Source: a virus. Taken from it: a stretch of 29,846 nucleotides of DNA. How positions within the stretch are numbered: position 1 is the first letter of the stretch; each line of letters begins with the position of its first letter. A program made the translations under genes and the position numbers. The notes below the pieces were generated by a model that searched no databases, had not been told where the DNA came from, and was given only the letters and a program-made list of their open reading frames with translations. This document shows, piece by piece, positions 1,396-27,342 of this stretch. The DNA lies in the IMG/VR virus record IMGVR_UViG_3300045107_000228, positions 1-29,846 of that record; one strand, written 5' to 3'.

Positions 1396-2307
1396 TCAGC
1401 CCAGCGCGACGGGATTGTCCTGCACCGCGACATCGAAGGCCAGGAATGGCTTGGCGACGTAGCAACCGGCGAATTCCCCGCTGAGAATCTTGCACCACTG
1501 GTAACCATCGGCCTGGATGTCATCGAGAACGGTGATAACCTCGCCGTGTTGAATCTTGCCCGGAATACTGGCCTTGATGGTCGGGGCAGCCCGTGCATTA
1601 AGGCCAATGTCCGAGTTGATGCGCGCCTGGGTCGGCGTCGTGACAGGGGGAGCGTCCGCAGTGGACGGGGCTGGCGTGAGCGCGGCCAGTGCCTGCGTCA
1701 TCAGACTGGCAGCCTGTAGCAGGATTTCCTGCGCGGCCTTGATCATCTCCTGCGGGGTAATGGGTTGGGGATTCTCCACCGGACGATTCCTCCGAATGTA
1801 CTGGATCGGATTAACATAATCGCGCTTCAGCCGGGCTTCATCTGTGCCAGGCCAGTCTTCCGGGTTACGGCCCAGCGTGCTGGTCAGGCTGAGATCGAAG
1901 TGCAGATGGTAGGGGAACTGCCCCTCGGCGTTGCCGATGCGCCCAATCTCGTCGCCGCGCTTGACGGCCTGCCCGACCCGCACGCCAATCGTTTCGACGT
2001 GGGCATAGCGGCTGTAGACCGCTTCGCCTGATGGAAGGGTGTGAGCCAGCACGATCAGCTTGCCCCACGTCCCACCGCCCAGCTTGGCATAGGTCACGAC
2101 GCCATGCGCAGCCGCGTAGACAGGGGCGTGGGCGTCGCGGTCTTCCGGCAGGTTAATATCCGCGCCCGTGTGATACGCCTGGCGCGTCGGCGTGACGTTG
2201 TAGAACGTGCCGTAAGGATTGGCATCCAGCCAGCGCCCAGGAAGCACCTGAGCGCTGCGGCGTTCGTCGGCAGTACCGACTGGTGAATCGAAGCCGTCTG
2301 TAACCAT
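1396..2307 (-). CDS. Endolysin: M23 metallopeptidase with C-terminal SH3 domain
   Basis: The 303-residue protein carries a lysostaphin-type M23 fold at about residues 35-165, with zinc ligands H46 and D50 (HTGAD), H136 from the HLH motif, and catalytic H103 and H134. Members of this family cut peptide cross-links of peptidoglycan. A linker rich in Ala, Thr and Pro (about 200-235) leads to an SH3-like domain (about 238-298), which usually binds the wall. There is no signal peptide, so release should depend on a holin. It is the last gene of the late operon, placed directly after the holin-like gene and before a strong terminator. Its start codon lies behind the 73-bp hairpin leader rather than beside a normal ribosome-binding site. 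Confidence 0.9.
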   Translation of the reverse strand: MVTDGFDSPVGTADERRSAQVLPGRWLDANPYGTFYNVTPTRQAYHTGADINLPEDRDAHAPVYAAAHGVVTYAKLGGGTWGKLIVLAHTLPSGEAVYSRYAHVETIGVRVGQAVKRGDEIGRIGNAEGQFPYHLHFDLSLTSTLGRNPEDWPGTDEARLKRDYVNPIQYIRRNRPVENPQPITPQEMIKAAQEILLQAASLMTQALAALTPAPSTADAPPVTTPTQARINSDIGLNARAAPTIKASIPGKIQHGEVITVLDDIQADGYQWCKILSGEFAGCYVAKPFLAFDVAVQDNPVALG

Positions 2308-2376
2308 AAAATTCGGCGGCGGGGACTGTCGCCTTTAGGCGACAGCGGAAGCCGCCACTCCTCCCTTTCTGTACAC
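2304..2376 (-). promoter_or_regulatory. Hairpin leader copy 1, before the endolysin gene
   Basis: This 73-bp block is identical to 2837-2909. Read on the minus strand it has a strong SD (GGGAGGAG, 2358-2365), one base, an outer stem GGCGGC/GCCGCC (2351-2356 with 2315-2320), a 5x5 internal loop, an inner 8-bp stem CTGTCGCC/GGCGACAG (2338-2345 with 2326-2333) with loop UAAA, then 7 bases and the ATG. Linear SD-to-start distance is about 50 bases. With the hairpin folded it is 8, the ideal spacing. I infer that folding places the SD for initiation. Confidence 0.75.
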
Positions 2377-2840
2377 TATCCGTTCCCGGTCTTTGCCTCG
2401 CCGCCCAGCAAGCTCTGCACGAGTCGCAGTTGCTCTGCGCTGAACGGCTGATCGACGGGTGCAGCCGGTGGCGCGGCTGGCGCTGCCGGGTCTTCGCCGG
2501 GGATCGGCACTTTGCCTGTTGGGTCATTGGTCGGGTCATGATCAATCGACTTGACCCAGTTGCCCATAACCGCTAGGAACGCTTTAAGCTGCGCGTCCTG
2601 GGCGAAGGACTGCCCGGCCTGCAAGGCGTCGATGATTTTGCGAAATGTGTCTTGGGGGATGTTCTCCGTTGCGCCCTTCGCAAGCTGCATATACAGTGGG
2701 TTCGCCATCGCATCCTGGATGGTCTTGGCCGCGACAGCAGCCGCGCGGTTATGCCCGACGGTGAACGCACCGACGATAGCAGCGGCGAAGACCGCCAGAA
2801 TCGCCGCGATACCGAGATACAGTGATAGGTTTTGTTCCAT
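2376..2840 (-). CDS. Holin-like single-span membrane protein
   Basis: The 154-residue protein has one clear hydrophobic segment at about residues 7-28 after a short N-terminus, then a charged helical domain, and a Pro/Ala-rich stretch (about 112-130) before the C-terminus. Position directly before the endolysin and a single N-terminal span suggest a holin or another lysis accessory protein. Its length exceeds that of a typical small holin, so a membrane-anchored accessory role is also possible. Its stop (TAG) lies at the edge of leader copy 1, and its own start lies behind leader copy 2, so both lysis genes share the same translation signal. Confidence 0.6.
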   Translation of the reverse strand: MEQNLSLYLGIAAILAVFAAAIVGAFTVGHNRAAAVAAKTIQDAMANPLYMQLAKGATENIPQDTFRKIIDALQAGQSFAQDAQLKAFLAVMGNWVKSIDHDPTNDPTGKVPIPGEDPAAPAAPPAAPVDQPFSAEQLRLVQSLLGGEAKTGNG

Positions 2841-2909
2841 AAAATTCGGCGGCGGGGACTGTCGCCTTTAGGCGACAGCGGAAGCCGCCACTCCTCCCTT
2901 TCTGTACAC
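2837..2909 (-). promoter_or_regulatory. Hairpin leader copy 2, before the holin-like gene
   Basis: An exact second copy of the 73-bp leader: SD at 2891-2898, outer stem 2884-2889 with 2848-2853, inner stem 2871-2878 with 2859-2866, start codon 2838-2840. Unlike copy 1, the upstream gene runs into it and stops at a UAA in the apical loop (2868-2870), so a translating ribosome would open the hairpin here. This suggests that the two copies respond differently to upstream translation. Confidence 0.75.
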
Positions 2910-18079: not shown

Positions 18080-20809
18080 TCAGACTGCGATGTTATAGAG
18101 GATGCTCGCGCAGTAGACATCCCTGTTGATGAACGCCGGGCGGACGGTGGCCGTCATCTGATAGCTGTCGTAGTACGACAGGTATTCCGTGACGACGGAA
18201 ATCTTGCGGCGGTAGCCGCCATAGAACTGCGGCTTGCTGGCGATAACCAGACGCCCGCGCGTGTTGTTGCCGCCGGTGCTGCTGACCTTGCCATTGCTGG
18301 AGGCCAGAGACATTTCATTGCTGACCAGAACCGGGATGTTATCGATCTTGCCGACCTCACCCGTGATGACAGTGGCGTTCGTGCCGTACTTATCGACGGT
18401 CAGCAGCTCAGGCAGGCTGAGGAGCTTCATGTAGGTCGGGAAGTCGCAGAAGATCACCAGGTCTTGCGGACGCGCGGCGTAGGCGCTCAGAAGCTTGGCG
18501 CGCGTGGCGCGGATGTACGCCAGGGTGGGCGCGATGTTGCCCATGTCCAGTGCGTTGCCGCCACTGTTGCTGACCAGGGCCGTGTAGATGATGCCCTTGA
18601 ACGCCACATAATACTTTTCCGTGCCGCCCGGCGTCCCACCGTCATAGTTGACGTTGCCCGACGCGGTGTTGTCCGCGTTCAGGTACACGTTGTCGATGGC
18701 GTCTTCCAGCGCGCGCTGTCCCTGCTTGCGCAGTTGCGCCGCGAACGGAATGATGGCGTCCTCGTCGGATTCCATCGAATAACCGACGCGCAGCGCCAGC
18801 TTGTCAGCGGTCAGGGTGACCTTGCCGGTTGCCAGCTTGCTGTCCGGGATGGGATTGCCTGCCCCGGCGATGGTCAGGTGCGCTTCGTCGGAGGTCTCAG
18901 GAACCTTGTACACCGTCGGATCGGTGCTTTCGATGGGCAGCTCATACGGGTTGGACGGCATGTCGATCTGCGCGAACTGCGCTGCGACCACGTTGTCCAA
19001 CCGGGTGCGATCCCAGAGGCGGTTCAGCCACAGATCAGGAACCCACTCATCGCCATAACCCGACTGCGTGCTGGTATCCAGTTCGTTGGACTTGATGGCA
19101 TTGAATGCCTTGATTGCCAGATCCGGCAGGCGTGTCCCGAACGATACGGCTTTCGTCGCCTTGTCGGCCATTTCGCGCATGAATTCGATGGTGGGCCGGT
19201 ATGCCTCACCCTTCGCTTTGGCGATGCCCTTCATGAAGGTCGCTACATACGCCATGTCCTCGTGATCGAGGTCGGCATACTTGGTGCTGACCTGAATGCG
19301 CGCATTGCGCTCGTGACCGGAGGCGCGGAAGCCGCCTACCTGGCTGATGCCAGGCGTGCCAGCGATGGTCGCCTTCACCGCGTCCTTGATCGCCTGGGAG
19401 CCGGGCTTGCGCACATTGCGCACAACACTGGCGACTGCCTGCAAGAACTTCGGATCATGGATCGCCTTCTGCGTCATGTCCTCTTCAGGAACGGGCGTGC
19501 CATCAGTCTTGGCAGGCGGAACGCCTTCGGCAGCGTCTTCCTGCTGCTCATACTGCGTATAGACCGGCGTGACCTGCTGCACCAGTTGGGCCATTTCCTG
19601 CTCGTTAAGCTGGATACCCAGGGCTTCGGCAACCGCCTGCACCAGAGCTTGCATCATCTGCTCGTCCATTGCTTTATATCCCTTCGTTCGTTTTGGTTTA
19701 GAGTCGTTGGTTGGTTGGGTATCGCCCGCCGCGTCTTGTCCCGCGTCGCCTGCTTTAGCCGTCCCCGACGACTCTTCCAGGCTGGCGAGATACGCCTTGA
19801 GCGTGGTTACACGTGTGCGTTGGTATTCGGCTGGCGTGGGGGTCAGGCTGGCTTCCACCAATGCCCATCTTTTGATCCGCCCGTCATAGTCTTTTTCAAC
19901 AGACTGCGGCAGCGCGCCGCTGGACCATCCTAGCACGCCCTTGCCGATCAAATCCTGCACCGCCATGACATACTGGTTGTGCAGATCAAGCTGTGCCTCA
20001 GCCCACAGGCCCACATCGTCGGTCTTGATGCTGTCAACAAATCCAATGGCGGTAGTCTTCAACGTTGCATCAAAGCCGTGATGGTAAAGAACCGGGCGCT
20101 GCGAATACCAGTCGAGGCAGAACTCTGTCTCAGGTGTGAAGTATTCTCCTTCCAGGTCTTTGCCGCCGAAGGCCACCAGATAGCCTCCCACGCGCCCATT
20201 GCCGAGGGACTTGATCGCGCTGCCGAAGGCAATGGGCCGATCCAGCGATTTCATTACCTGCCCGGTTAGCGGCAGGTCGTACCGCTCATCGCCCCAGGCC
20301 AGGGTGACGTGATCGACGGTGAACGCCACAGGATCAATCACGATAGGCGGCGTGGCGATCTCCCGTGGGATATAGGCCAGCGTGAGGTGCGGCGTGAAAC
20401 CATGCGTCTGATCGGGTGTAATGCCGACTGCCTGGAGCGCGCCCAGGAGCCGCTGCCGGAAAGCGGGCAGGGCAGGCGAGTCGAAGTTGGCATAAAAGGC
20501 GTTGGGATCGGCATCCATAAAGCGCCCGATGCCGTTGAACTTGCCGTCCAATGGTGGCTCGTTGAGCGCGAATGCCCGCAATGCATCGATCACCGCCGTC
20601 TTCTGCTCATCCAGGGGTGCAGCGTCACCCAGATAGGCCAGCGTCACGTGCATGTCGTCGGGTTCCTGCATGGCAGCAGCATTACCACCATCGATGGCCC
20701 CGGCACAGCGCTCGAACAGGACAGTAGCCAGTGTCACCGGCGGGAAGAACGCAACCATCGCGCCCGTATTGCCCAGTGTCTTGTTGCTTGTTTGGTTTAT
20801 GTCTGACAT
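18080..20809 (-). CDS. Fusion: 2H phosphoesterase + prohead protease + HK97-type major capsid protein, 909 aa
   Basis: I chose ATG 20809 (GAGGG 4 bases upstream) over the longer frame from 20851. Three parts are visible. Residues about 15-185: a 2H phosphoesterase of the LigT/CPDase type with both catalytic motifs, H54-V-T56 (HVTLAYLG) and H141-L-T143 (HLTLAY). Residues about 190-340: an HK97-type prohead serine protease, with a GKDLEGEYF-like start, His at 243/244 (LYHHG), Ser at 296/297 (GWSSG) and E319 (VEAS). Residues about 381-909: a helical scaffold-like delta region followed by the HK97-fold capsid protein (segments NELDTSTQSGYGDEWVP, then YSMESDEDAI and so on). Protease and capsid fusions are known; the added 2H domain is unusual. 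The protease may release the 2H domain during maturation. The domain could act on 2'-5' or cyclic nucleotide bonds, as T4 Acb1 does on CBASS signals, but this is inference. Confidence 0.85.
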   Translation of the reverse strand: MSDINQTSNKTLGNTGAMVAFFPPVTLATVLFERCAGAIDGGNAAAMQEPDDMHVTLAYLGDAAPLDEQKTAVIDALRAFALNEPPLDGKFNGIGRFMDADPNAFYANFDSPALPAFRQRLLGALQAVGITPDQTHGFTPHLTLAYIPREIATPPIVIDPVAFTVDHVTLAWGDERYDLPLTGQVMKSLDRPIAFGSAIKSLGNGRVGGYLVAFGGKDLEGEYFTPETEFCLDWYSQRPVLYHHGFDATLKTTAIGFVDSIKTDDVGLWAEAQLDLHNQYVMAVQDLIGKGVLGWSSGALPQSVEKDYDGRIKRWALVEASLTPTPAEYQRTRVTTLKAYLASLEESSGTAKAGDAGQDAAGDTQPTNDSKPKRTKGYKAMDEQMMQALVQAVAEALGIQLNEQEMAQLVQQVTPVYTQYEQQEDAAEGVPPAKTDGTPVPEEDMTQKAIHDPKFLQAVASVVRNVRKPGSQAIKDAVKATIAGTPGISQVGGFRASGHERNARIQVSTKYADLDHEDMAYVATFMKGIAKAKGEAYRPTIEFMREMADKATKAVSFGTRLPDLAIKAFNAIKSNELDTSTQSGYGDEWVPDLWLNRLWDRTRLDNVVAAQFAQIDMPSNPYELPIESTDPTVYKVPETSDEAHLTIAGAGNPIPDSKLATGKVTLTADKLALRVGYSMESDEDAIIPFAAQLRKQGQRALEDAIDNVYLNADNTASGNVNYDGGTPGGTEKYYVAFKGIIYTALVSNSGGNALDMGNIAPTLAYIRATRAKLLSAYAARPQDLVIFCDFPTYMKLLSLPELLTVDKYGTNATVITGEVGKIDNIPVLVSNEMSLASSNGKVSSTGGNNTRGRLVIASKPQFYGGYRRKISVVTEYLSYYDSYQMTATVRPAFINRDVYCASILYNIAV
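19667..19685 (-). promoter_or_regulatory. Internal ribosome-binding site and start inside the capsid fusion
   Basis: Codon 381 of the fusion is an ATG (19667-19669) preceded by GAAGGGA (19679-19685) at a spacing of 9 bases. Initiation here would give a 529-residue scaffold-plus-capsid protein without the 2H and protease parts. That would solve the dosage problem of making hundreds of capsid subunits but few proteases, as nested lambda C/Nu3 does for scaffold. Confidence 0.55.
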
Positions 20810-20821
20810 ACGTCCCTCAAC

Positions 20822-20860
20822 AAAAAGCGCCCAGCACAGACTTCCGTCCATGCCGAGCGC
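20822..20860 (-). terminator. Intrinsic terminator or attenuator just before the capsid fusion
   Basis: Read on the minus strand, a 15-bp stem (arms 20846-20860 and 20827-20841, with G-U pairs) closes on a GGAA (GNRA) tetraloop and is followed directly by TTTTT. The SD of the capsid gene begins 3 bases after the T-run. It would stop or reduce transcripts coming from the terminase-portal genes unless read through or antiterminated. Confidence 0.75.
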
Positions 20861-25628: not shown

Positions 25629-25641
25629 CGAATAGCGCCGT

Positions 25642-25666
25642 AAAGCCCCTGCCTTCAGGCGTGGGG
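25642..25666 (+). repeat. Left-end hairpin of the IS
   Basis: AAAG (25642-25645) is followed by CCCC-T-GCC, a TTCA loop and GGC-G-T-GGGG, a stem with a bulged T at 25662. The AAAG plus bulged hairpin layout is that of IS608, where the tetranucleotide guides recognition of the TTAC cleavage site. An outer GCGCC/GGCGC pair (25635-25639, 25673-25677) encloses it. Confidence 0.85.
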
Positions 25667-25687
25667 ATATAAGGCGCTCCTTTCCCC

Positions 25688-25728
25688 TTGTATTATATAG
25701 GCTCATGCTGTATAATACTTGCATGAGC
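25688..25728 (+). promoter_or_regulatory. tnpA promoter with inverted repeat; probable leaderless transcript
   Basis: TTGTAT (25688-25693), 17 bp, TATAAT (25711-25716) gives a start near 25722-25724, at the tnpA ATG (25723). There is no SD, so tnpA would be leaderless. GCTCATGC (25701-25708) and GCATGAGC (25721-25728) form an inverted repeat around the -10, a possible operator. Confidence 0.65.
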
Positions 25729-26127
25729 AGCGAACGAACCTTCAAGAGCAACCACAACGTGGTGTACTCCTGCAAGTACCACATCATCTTTTGTCCCAAA
25801 TACCGCCGCAGCGTCTTGGTACGGGGTGTGGATGCGCGTTTCAAAGACATTGCGACGACGTTGGCGGCTGAGATGCGCGTAGACATCCTTGAATTAGAAG
25901 TGATGCCCGACCACGTACATCTGTTATGCGAGATTGATCCGCAGTTGGGTGTCCACAAGTTCGTGAAGCATCTCAAGGGACGTAGTTCGCGGCAGCTGCG
26001 CCAGGAATTTGACTGGTTGCGCTCCCGTTTGCCGACGCTGTGGACGAACTCGTACTTTGTGGCGACGGTTGGCGGCGCACCGCTGGCAGTCATCAAGCAG
26101 TATATCGAGAACCAGAAACACGTCTGA
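25723..26127 (+). CDS. tnpA: IS200/IS605 transposase TnpA (Y1 HUH), 134 aa
   Basis: The HUH motif is H64-V-H66 (MPDHVHLL), and the catalytic tyrosine is Y127 (VIKQYIENQ). These nick and join single-stranded DNA at the element ends. Length is normal for the family. The ATG at 25723 is preferred to 25705, since it fits the promoter position and gives a standard N-terminus; both are in frame. The stop overlaps the tnpB start by one base (TGATG). Confidence 0.95.
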   Translation: MSSERTFKSNHNVVYSCKYHIIFCPKYRRSVLVRGVDARFKDIATTLAAEMRVDILELEVMPDHVHLLCEIDPQLGVHKFVKHLKGRSSRQLRQEFDWLRSRLPTLWTNSYFVATVGGAPLAVIKQYIENQKHV

Positions 26128-27290
26128 TGCAGCGCAAGACCTTCAAGTACCGTCTGTACCCCACCCCACCGCAAGCCCGCTTGCTGGCGCAAGTGCTGGA
26201 TGTATGCCGCCACTGGTACAATATGTGCATCGAAGACCGCAAGTTGGCGTGGGAACTGGAACAGCGCAGCGTCACGAAGGGTCAGCAAGAAAAGACGGGC
26301 ATCCACTACCGCCGTACCTTCCCCAAAGCACAGGCCGTCTTTAGCCAGACGATGCAGGTGGTATGTGACGACGTAGATAAGGCGTATCAAGCCTTCTTTC
26401 GCCGCCTTAAGGCGGGTGAAACGCCGGGCTACCCGCGCTTCAAGGGCTACTACCACTTTGACAGCTTTGGCTTCAAGCAGTACGGTTCTGGCATTAAAAT
26501 CGACGGACGGCGCTTGAAGATATTCGGGGTAGGGCGGGTGCGCGTGCGGTGGGATCGCTCCATCGAAGGCACGATCAAGACCGTTCGCATCCGGCGCACC
26601 GCTGGCAAGTGGTATGCCTGTTTTAGCGTTGAACTGCCCGACCCCACGCCGCTTAACCCAACCGGACAGCAGATCGGCATCGATCTGAACGTGGAAAACC
26701 TGCTCACCGACAGCATGGGCAACCGCCGCGAGTCGCCTAAATACTACCGGCAAGCGCAGCGTGATCTGCGCCTTGCCCAACGTGCCGTGCAGCGCAAACA
26801 GCAGGGCAGCCAGAACCGTCGCAAGGCAATTTTGCGCGTTCAGCGTTTGCACGAACACATCAAGAACCAACGGCAAGACCTCCTCAACAAAGTTGCCCAT
26901 GACTACACGCGGGCCTTCGATTTGATTGCCCTCGAAGACCTGCGCATCACCAATATGGTACGCAATCGTCACCTCAGCAAAAGCATTTTGGATGCGGGTT
27001 GGGGCTACCTGCGCAACCGATTGACCGTCAAAGCTGCGAACGCTGGACGACAAATCGTGCTGGTAGACCCGGCCTATACCTCCAAGACTTGCTCGCACTG
27101 TGGTCAACTGTTCTCCGATCTAACCCTTGCCGATAGGTGGGTCACTTGCGATGCTTGTGGTCTAAGTCTCGCCCGCGACCACAATGCCGCGATCAATATT
27201 CTCAAGCGGGCGACTATCGGATGGGACACATCCGTACCGCTTAACGTAGCCCCGCTGCCAGCAGGATCGGTAAGGGCAAGCGTGCGGTAG
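26127..27290 (+). CDS. tnpB: RNA-guided nuclease TnpB, 387 aa
   Basis: All catalytic positions of the RuvC-like domain are present: D186 (GIDLNVENL), E270 (IALEDLR) and D351 (ARDHNAAIN). The four-Cys zinc finger is C322, C325, C341, C344. The N-terminal WED/REC-like part begins KTFKYRLYPTPPQ. Length (387) is typical, so this looks active. TnpB proteins use an RNA from the right end of the element to cut DNA matching the flank, which maintains the element after excision. The ATG at 26127 overlaps the tnpA stop; the longer upstream frame is a shadow of tnpA. Confidence 0.95.
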   Translation: MQRKTFKYRLYPTPPQARLLAQVLDVCRHWYNMCIEDRKLAWELEQRSVTKGQQEKTGIHYRRTFPKAQAVFSQTMQVVCDDVDKAYQAFFRRLKAGETPGYPRFKGYYHFDSFGFKQYGSGIKIDGRRLKIFGVGRVRVRWDRSIEGTIKTVRIRRTAGKWYACFSVELPDPTPLNPTGQQIGIDLNVENLLTDSMGNRRESPKYYRQAQRDLRLAQRAVQRKQQGSQNRRKAILRVQRLHEHIKNQRQDLLNKVAHDYTRAFDLIALEDLRITNMVRNRHLSKSILDAGWGYLRNRLTVKAANAGRQIVLVDPAYTSKTCSHCGQLFSDLTLADRWVTCDACGLSLARDHNAAINILKRATIGWDTSVPLNVAPLPAGSVRASVR

Positions 27291-27342
27291 AAACCCCCGC
27301 CTTTAGGCGTGGGGAGTGTCATGACCACCAAAGCCCCGACCG
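27170..27342 (+). ncRNA. Predicted TnpB guide RNA (omega RNA) with guide
   Basis: By analogy with other TnpB elements, the RNA should cover the 3' end of tnpB and the right-end hairpin and run into the flank. The guide would be about 16-20 bases from 27323, and the adjacent motif would be TTAC. I cannot see the exact 5' end or processing. Confidence 0.4.
27291..27322 (+). repeat. Right-end hairpin and tip of the IS
   Basis: CCCCC-GCC, TTTA loop, GGC-G-T-GGGG (27294-27314) repeats the left-end fold with the bulged T. AGTGTCAT follows; the element ends at TCAT (27319-27322). The hairpin begins 4 bases after the tnpB stop. Confidence 0.85.

Follow-up and report, generated by a model that had tools for sequence, protein, structure and literature searches.

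Why does a phage carry one and the same hairpin, set between a Shine-Dalgarno (SD)-like sequence and a start codon, before two adjacent genes? The question arises in IMG/VR virus record IMGVR_UViG_3300045107_000228, whose 29,846 bases were analyzed in full and are referred to here as the window. A preliminary description had reported that positions 2304-2376 and 2837-2909 are identical, and a repeat search agreed: they form a 73-nucleotide (nt) direct repeat at 100% identity, 533 nt apart, with two occurrences in the record, while the direct repeat listed after it measures 22 nt at 86%. We consider it probable that this block is a solo end of the IS200/IS605 superfamily, derived from transposons that target start codons and carry a hairpin-bridged ribosome-binding site (RBS), which would spare the gene into which they insert. 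The best reading of the transposon subgroup concerned is that it comprises carriers of TnpB or of HEARO RNA with IscB.

Both blocks lie on the minus strand and abut the ATGG of an open reading frame (ORF), at 2376-2840 (154 aa) and 1396-2307 (303 aa). In the sense of these genes the layout is GTGTACAGAAA-GGGAGGAG-T-[GGCGGC TTCC GCTGTCGCC TAAA GGCGACAGT CCCC GCCGCC]-GAATTTT-ATG-G, so that the SD-like GGGAGGAG is followed by one base, a two-part hairpin of 42 nt (measured between the outer-stem feet), 7 nt and the ATG. The hairpin consists of an outer 6-bp stem, a 4x4 internal loop, an inner 9-bp stem that includes a terminal G-U pair, and a UAAA loop. In both copies the distance from SD to ATG is 50 nt in the linear sequence and 8 nt with the hairpin folded out, the same figures that had drawn attention to the block. 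The parts of the two copies are:

2304-2376, minus strand: copy 1, putative solo transposon end with its CCAT/ATGG target, before the M23 endolysin-like ORF (repeat identity; covariance-model match)
2837-2909, minus strand: copy 2, identical block before the 154-aa membrane-protein ORF (repeat identity; covariance-model match)
2358-2365, minus strand: SD-like GGGAGGAG of copy 1, read in the sequence; spacing 50 nt linear, 8 nt effective
2891-2898, minus strand: SD-like GGGAGGAG of copy 2, read in the sequence; spacing 50 nt linear, 8 nt effective
2315-2356, minus strand: two-part hairpin of copy 1 (fold, model match, covariation)
2848-2889, minus strand: two-part hairpin of copy 2 (fold, model match, covariation)
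2322-2325 (copy 1) and 2855-2858 (copy 2), plus strand: putative guide GGGA (transposon sense), at the inner hairpin's foot, matching CCAT by the IS608 rule
2304-2307 (copy 1) and 2837-2840 (copy 2), plus strand: putative left-flank target CCAT, the reverse complement of ATGG (start codon plus G), from sequence and the guide-target rule

Folded as an 81-nt unit, the block reached -31.2 kcal/mol (z = -2.54; 3 of 200 shuffles as good), while in a 171-nt context the same hairpin gave z-scores of just -1.34 and -1.23. The four outermost pairs had mean probabilities of 0.80 and 0.95 in local context, and bases of the SD were on average unpaired with a probability of 0.53 and 0.51. Among relatives, in alignment A3, 9 of 14 pairs change on both sides, and in alignment A4, with 46 distinct rows, 13 of 14 pairs covary, the outer helix at all 6 of its 6 pairs (0 of 500 shuffles as high in either alignment). 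A4 was fitted to the covariance model and for this reason leans towards the structure.

The relatives were reached from a weak plasmid match (84% over 51 nt, E = 3e-4) that directly follows the tnpA stop codon in an IS200/IS605 element. Further matches, in Allomeiothermus, Mycobacterium and Bifidobacterium plasmids, lie just 5' of a tnpB-like gene that is encoded on the other strand, and at L005 and L006 the plasmid's gene table starts a gene at the exact ATG behind the hairpin. Pattern scans that required the hairpin alone, and neither SD nor ATG, added members from viral contigs, Bacillota, Bacteroidota, Sutterella and Alicyclobacillus; among the loci found by pattern (4, 9 and 3 per scan), L012, L018, L021-L023 and L024-L026 were judged chance or uncertain and kept out of the seed. 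Covariance model R1 was built from 12 sequences over the hairpin only, and since one of them is a window copy, the window's own matches (2315-2356 and 2848-2889, 58.2 bits each) are there by construction. L010 was left out of A3 as divergent, L009 (Shinella) was not used, and L007, whose block resembles that of L019, was represented by L019 alone. At least 14 of the 15 records behind known loci had an R1 match at E ≤ 0.001, and searches of 67, 250, 43, 369 and 398 genomes gave matches at E ≤ 1e-7 in at least 7, 5, 1, 4 and 1 of them, seed genomes included, with at least four such matches in the Sutterella wadsworthensis genome behind G009; as a limited number of candidates was scored per genome (e.g., 16-150), the genome counts are lower bounds.

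Many of these ends adjoin genes of mobile elements. Those beside tnpA, tnpB or iscB include L027 (the same as L004), L028 (L005), L029 (L006), L032, L043, L044, L072, L073, L076 and L077, and those beside iscB are L041, L046, L048, L052, L058, L059, L063-L066 and L070; the IscB homologues of L058 and L063 match NF040563. The element at L086 starts at base 1647 with an Rfam HEARO match (RF02033, 120 bits), and HEARO was matched in 3 of 7 relatives tested (L086, L118 and L064; not L088, L115, L122 or L125). The tblastn search for TnpB and IscB missed the distant TnpB of L076, which makes "none found" elsewhere a weak statement. In L058 (1524-2846, minus strand), L041 and L063 the iscB frame crosses the SD tract into the end hairpin, in a frame that differs among elements.

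We scored 39 strong hits (at least 46 bits, window included, near-identical copies counted separately) from 22 genomes or records, leaving L035, L038, L050 and weak R1 matches without a locus unscored. An NTGR sequence, that is, a start-codon-like triplet followed by a purine, stands 6-13 nt past the hairpin in 38 of 39. An SD core, defined as GGAG, GAGG or AGGA no more than 12 nt from the hairpin foot, occurs in 33/39, compared with 985 of 13,216 upstream windows (7.5%). By type, the core is found at 21/21 ends beside iscB or its remnants, 10/13 beside tnpA/tnpB, 0/3 untyped ends and 2/2 window copies, and its retention both where it is coding (the IscB end) and mostly where it is non-coding speaks for a role at the nucleotide level. 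A conventional SD core at -18 to -5 was found in none of the 38 loci with an ATG or GTG in range. ORFs of at least 90 aa begin at the NTGR in 25/39, compared with 281 of 1,103 ATGR sites of the same loci (25.5%; binomial 4e-7). After deduplication to 35 hits, NTGR was present in 34, agreement with the guide rule described below in 29, an SD core in 30 and such an ORF in 23. A further 16 hits came later, 14 of them in a single genome (G483), and were scored in the same way: 14 had NTGR, 15 an SD core and 8 an ORF of at least 90 aa, against a background of 149/628 (24%). Among 13 weaker hits (31-43 bits), an SD core and an ORF of this length occurred in 2 each.

The position of the ends next to start codons has a counterpart in the hairpin foot. 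In IS608, according to the available text of PMC5934647, target base -3 is the partner of the first guide base, and -4 that of the second. In our set the guide, read in transposon sense, covaries with the left flank (GGGA or GGTA with CCAT, GAAA or GAGA with TCAT, GAAG with TCAC), and the target, reverse-complemented, gives a start codon plus purine. Both tested guide positions match in 32/39 strong hits; over all 47 hits with NTGR they do so in 36, a number not reached in any of 10,000 shuffles (mean 19.4), and the window copies obey the rule twice, GGGA standing with CCAT. The scan took the first NTGR in range, so that L072, L073 and the group of L030, L033 and L037 count as failures despite a later NTGR that fits; outright failures are L060, L068, L074, L075 and L077. 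The group from a Thermobispora plasmid (L030, L033, L037) forms a natural contrast: these TnpB ends have a shorter outer stem and a GTGA flank, and there is neither an SD core at them nor a long ORF behind.

Family matches of the proteins behind the ends show that many of these ORFs are real genes starting at the flanking codon. Among the first 10 proteins, LeuD (with the profile from residue 1), cystathionine beta-lyase (metC) and RecJ (L076) were matched; alanine-aminotransferase-, mercaptopyruvate-sulfurtransferase-, Mfd- (cut by the locus end), MetQ- and FlxJ-methyltransferase-like proteins fell below curated cut-offs, and Usp-like and MBL-fold-like matches were weak or partial. The second 10 included cytochrome c3, DUF805, GAF-SpoIIE, aldehyde dehydrogenase, DsrE, a substrate-binding/HisKA protein and an antitoxin-like protein, L052 having matches below cut-off only and L056 and L065 no family match. 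A third set of 8 gave ribosomal protein L19 (rplS), LpxL, a response regulator and RecJ again, with weak matches for L117 and L128 and no family match for L119 and L124. Alignments with orthologues begin at this same first methionine for LeuD (7/7), the sulfurtransferase (4/4) and the aminotransferase (7/9; L101 and L102 from residue 6), and these orthologues have other sequence upstream, with no such end within the 55 nt shown.

The clearest view of an insertion comes from leuD in genome G070 and its sister G071. The leuD regions of the two are collinear, at 94% upstream and 89% downstream, apart from an insert of 1,554 bp whose position is exactly before the ATG. The G070 insert codes for IscB, begins with HEARO RNA from its first base (RF02033, 120 bits) and terminates with ACAAGGAG, the hairpin and AAATCATCT, upon which the leuD ATG follows. 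The native GGGGGAC that precedes this ATG in G071 is 1.5 kb away in G070, and the codon context differs, being ATGA in G070 and ATGG in G071. A coarser case is offered by G068 and G009, in which the alignment of the aminotransferase halts at the ATG and upstream similarity resumes after a length gap of ~1.57 kb.

Short derivatives of the element exist as well. L057 has no more than 73-74 nt in common with its full-length siblings L063 and L070, and this short end stands before an MBL-fold-like ORF, like the window copies before theirs. Genome G483 holds 14 ends (L114, L117-L129) before genes such as rplS and lpxL, which share roughly 50-400 nt with one another; for 13 of the 14 no TnpB or IscB was found in the fetched stretch by tblastn, which can miss distant homologues, and L122 was borderline. 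L118 carries HEARO, L122 and L125 have no HEARO match, and the G483 ends are possibly a short HEARO-derived repeat family. Since neither a transposase or accessory gene nor a second end was found beside the window blocks, we describe these as solo ends and not as an element.

Taken together, the sequences suggest the following course of events. Part of it can be read off directly: the guide at the hairpin foot matches the complement of a start codon plus purine, the elements stand immediately 5' of an NTGR, and most ends have an SD core ahead of a covarying ~42-nt hairpin, which in the usual case stops 7-10 nt short of the codon. In the mRNA this hairpin would fold out, leaving the element's SD ~7-13 nt from the start codon (8 here), and this SD would replace the native RBS displaced by the insertion, with the result that the target gene is still translated and the insertion tolerated. 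We infer initiation at the native codon driven by the element's SD. In the phage, a membrane-protein gene and an endolysin-like gene would each have its start served by one of two identical copies without an ORF of their own. The structure-dependent start proposed earlier, on the model of T4 gene 38, agrees in this respect with the geometry, the compensated stems, the SD in 33/39 and the conventional SD in 0/38, its translational part staying a prediction; T4 genes 38 and 25 make hairpin-bridged initiation possible in principle (PMC3014915, available text).

The genes next to the two copies were described beforehand as a holin-like gene and an endolysin gene. They are, with the gene upstream of copy 2:

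1396-2307, minus strand: endolysin-like M23 peptidase with an SH3-like tail, 303 aa, whose start would be served by copy 1
2376-2840, minus strand: 154-aa membrane-protein ORF, whose start would be served by copy 2 and is conserved in the relative L003
2868-3206, minus strand: gene truncated at copy 2, its frame entering the block and stopping at the UAA in the hairpin loop

The endolysin assignment fits (Peptidase_M23 at E = 3e-19; SH3_3 below cut-off), and this protein has no relative in viral_contigs. That of a holin is weak, the 154-aa ORF having no Pfam match at E = 0.001 and as its sole lead an Rz-like spanin PHROG at E = 0.005. In L003, a relative phage contig, the membrane-protein gene (protein 90% identical) has an ordinary SD (GAGGAGG, 5 nt, GTG) and no block. 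Similarity between the window and L003 breaks at copy 2, where L003 has ~4.36 kb of further sequence with genes; the homologue of the truncated gene is longer there (344-871), the L003 record is without the block, and there is no exact empty site for the window copies. The copies have different flanks on both sides. The block's GTACA possibly stems from the truncated gene, as L003 has GAGTACAAG there, which would make copy 2 the older, but five bases are too few to decide the order; the second copy may have arisen by a second insertion or by duplication. The earlier suggestion to look for the block in related phages was taken up: homologous hairpins occur in viral contigs, the block has no exact match in viral_contigs as a 51-mer or a 20-mer and is lacking in L003. 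Against phages, blastn gave no match for the 3.4-kb region and a single 21-nt match at E = 7 for the block alone; an Rfam scan of the block yielded no family at gathering score, the window has no match to the HEARO covariance model (RF02033) or to IscB, and no tRNA was found in the window or in L016.

Elsewhere in the window, positions 25630-27325 (plus strand) hold a complete-looking IS200/IS605 element of a target type different from that of the CCAT block, with a left-end guide AAAG, apparently a TTAC target, and a right-end hairpin near 27290-27313. Its genes are:

25705-26127, plus strand: tnpA (NCBIfam transpos_IS200)
26127-27290, plus strand: tnpB (NCBIfam guided_TnpB)

A 923-aa ORF at 18080-20851 (minus strand) has matches to 2'-5' RNA ligase/LigT, prohead protease (S78) and major head protein in series, and appears to be an unusual head-gene fusion.

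Hairpin, guide and purine tract might serve only TnpA recognition in single-stranded DNA, with the position of the SD incidental and the genes translated by termination-reinitiation or poorly. By homology with IS608, the inner hairpin and guide do constitute a TnpA recognition site; the upstream frame stops inside the hairpin in several IscB elements and in the truncated gene before copy 2, which suits reinitiation, and a similar purine tract occurs in the window's TTAC-type IS605. A role in DNA alone leaves unexplained that the SD tract is kept at all 21 coding IscB ends and mostly (10/13) at the non-coding tnpA/tnpB ends, while the 13 weaker hits rarely have an SD core or a long ORF (2/13 each), that no further SD core lies at -18 to -5 before genes such as leuD, recJ (L076) and mfd, and that the outer helix covaries at 6/6 pairs, a helix not described for IS608 in the available text of PMC5934647. 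We regard this explanation as unlikely. Much less probable still is an RNA switch evolved by the phage and duplicated to coordinate lysis timing, which was the function first proposed. Identical copies before adjacent genes, one of them M23 endolysin-like, would suit it, but the same kind of block precedes leuD, rplS, recJ, metC and mfd-like and aminotransferase genes, unrelated bacterial genes, and belongs to transposons; moreover, the membrane-protein gene of L003 has an ordinary SD in place of the block, it is not clear that the first gene encodes a holin, and the block contains no Rfam family at gathering score. Lysis-timing control was not upheld; that two neighbouring phage genes both have the block is better accounted for by a mobile end that inserted or was duplicated than by selection for co-regulation. 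A strong hairpin in two identical copies could finally reflect chance, duplication in the assembly, or a hairpin of the ordinary kind that terminates transcription or directs RNA processing; flanks that differ between the copies on either side, homologues in many genomes with compensated stems and the same start-codon geometry, and a stem followed not directly by a U-run but by UUUU 3 nt on, in the spacer, make this hardly credible.

Several observations weigh against a start-codon-targeting end with a built-in RBS. An SD core is absent in 6/39 strong hits (weak purine tracts in L039, L074 and L075, none in L043, L044 and L045), no ORF of at least 90 aa lies behind 14/39 strong and 8/16 later hits, and the ORF-length count is generous at two doubtful ORFs (L042, L043); L027, L040, L049, L067, L071-L073, L077 and several G483 copies have an SD yet no long ORF. 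In local folding the outer-stem probability is below 0.5 in 8/38 loci, and the SD is often partly paired. The hairpin has a role in DNA too, so its conservation alone is no proof of a role in RNA, and copies within one genome share their SD by descent, although each insertion beside a different gene is a separate event. No tnpA, tnpB, iscB or HEARO accompanies the window copies, nor was another transposon end found for them, and there is no evident route by which the 68-nt unit moved. AAAGGAG also occurs next to the left end of the TTAC-type IS605 in the window (25.6-27.3 kb), so the tract may predate start-codon targeting. Finally, the target-adjacent motifs (TAMs) published for other IscB proteins, NTAAA and NWRGNA, are not start-codon-like (PMC13180657, available text).

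Compared with known systems, the block resembles the left end of IS608 in its subterminal imperfect palindrome, in the pairing of a 5'-foot guide with a short left-flank target, and in insertion 3' of a target that is kept (PMC5934647, available text). It differs in that its target is the complement of NTGR start codons and not TTAC, and in having, relative to the same text, an extra covarying outer helix, and in an SD-like tract on the inner side, the window copies being solo. Relatives of the block form the far end of HEARO RNA-iscB elements (RF02033; NF040563), and the TAMs given for IsrB in the portion available of PMC9581776, namely NTGA, NTG and NTGG, agree with the NTGR of the ends; unlike those elements, the window has no HEARO or IscB match, and because the other IscB TAMs cited above differ, we narrowed our claim on TAMs from IscB in general to the IsrB type. 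At T4 genes 38 and 25, a hairpin between SD and AUG cuts the spacing from 22 to 5 and from 27 to 11 nt (PMC3014915, in the text available), as the block would from 50 to 8; the T4 sites belong to single phage genes, whereas the block's site rides on a transposon end and precedes unrelated genes. IStrons, which combine a group I intron with an insertion sequence, are likewise transposons with a means of keeping insertions harmless (PMC4227781, partial text), but they are spliced out of the mRNA, whereas here the mRNA would retain the insert and gain a new translation start. Solo IS605-derived hairpins linked to host genes are known as the free-standing stem loops of Borrelia (PMC2775950) and as REP sequences (PMC8266576), both accounts being available in part; the Borrelia loops lie at the 3' ends of lipoprotein genes, and no RBS role is described for them in that part. 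Neither start-codon targeting combined with a carried RBS nor a link of TAMs to either was found in the literature searched, outside of which stand the HEARO, ISC and OMEGA discovery papers. HEARO is reportedly inserted before ATGA or GTGA. The targeting part would be less new if those papers already discuss start codons.

We also lean, with less confidence than for the solo end itself, towards a broader proposal: that in one family of RNA-guided (IscB/TnpB) transposons the target code is tuned to start codons, with a built-in split RBS taking over initiation of the host gene, that solo ends have spread as portable RBSs, phages included, and that the start-codon-like TAMs of IsrB (NTGA, NTGG) are explained in this way. 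If true, this would explain how some TnpB/IscB transposons survive in gene-dense genomes, by aiming at start codons and bringing an RBS, and would account for start-codon-like TAMs. Naturally compensated variants of the split RBS could be used for testing SD action over long range, and in annotation, a gene that shows no SD may have one ~50 nt further upstream, on the far side of a transposon hairpin. It would also mean that transposon ends can take over the translation of core genes.

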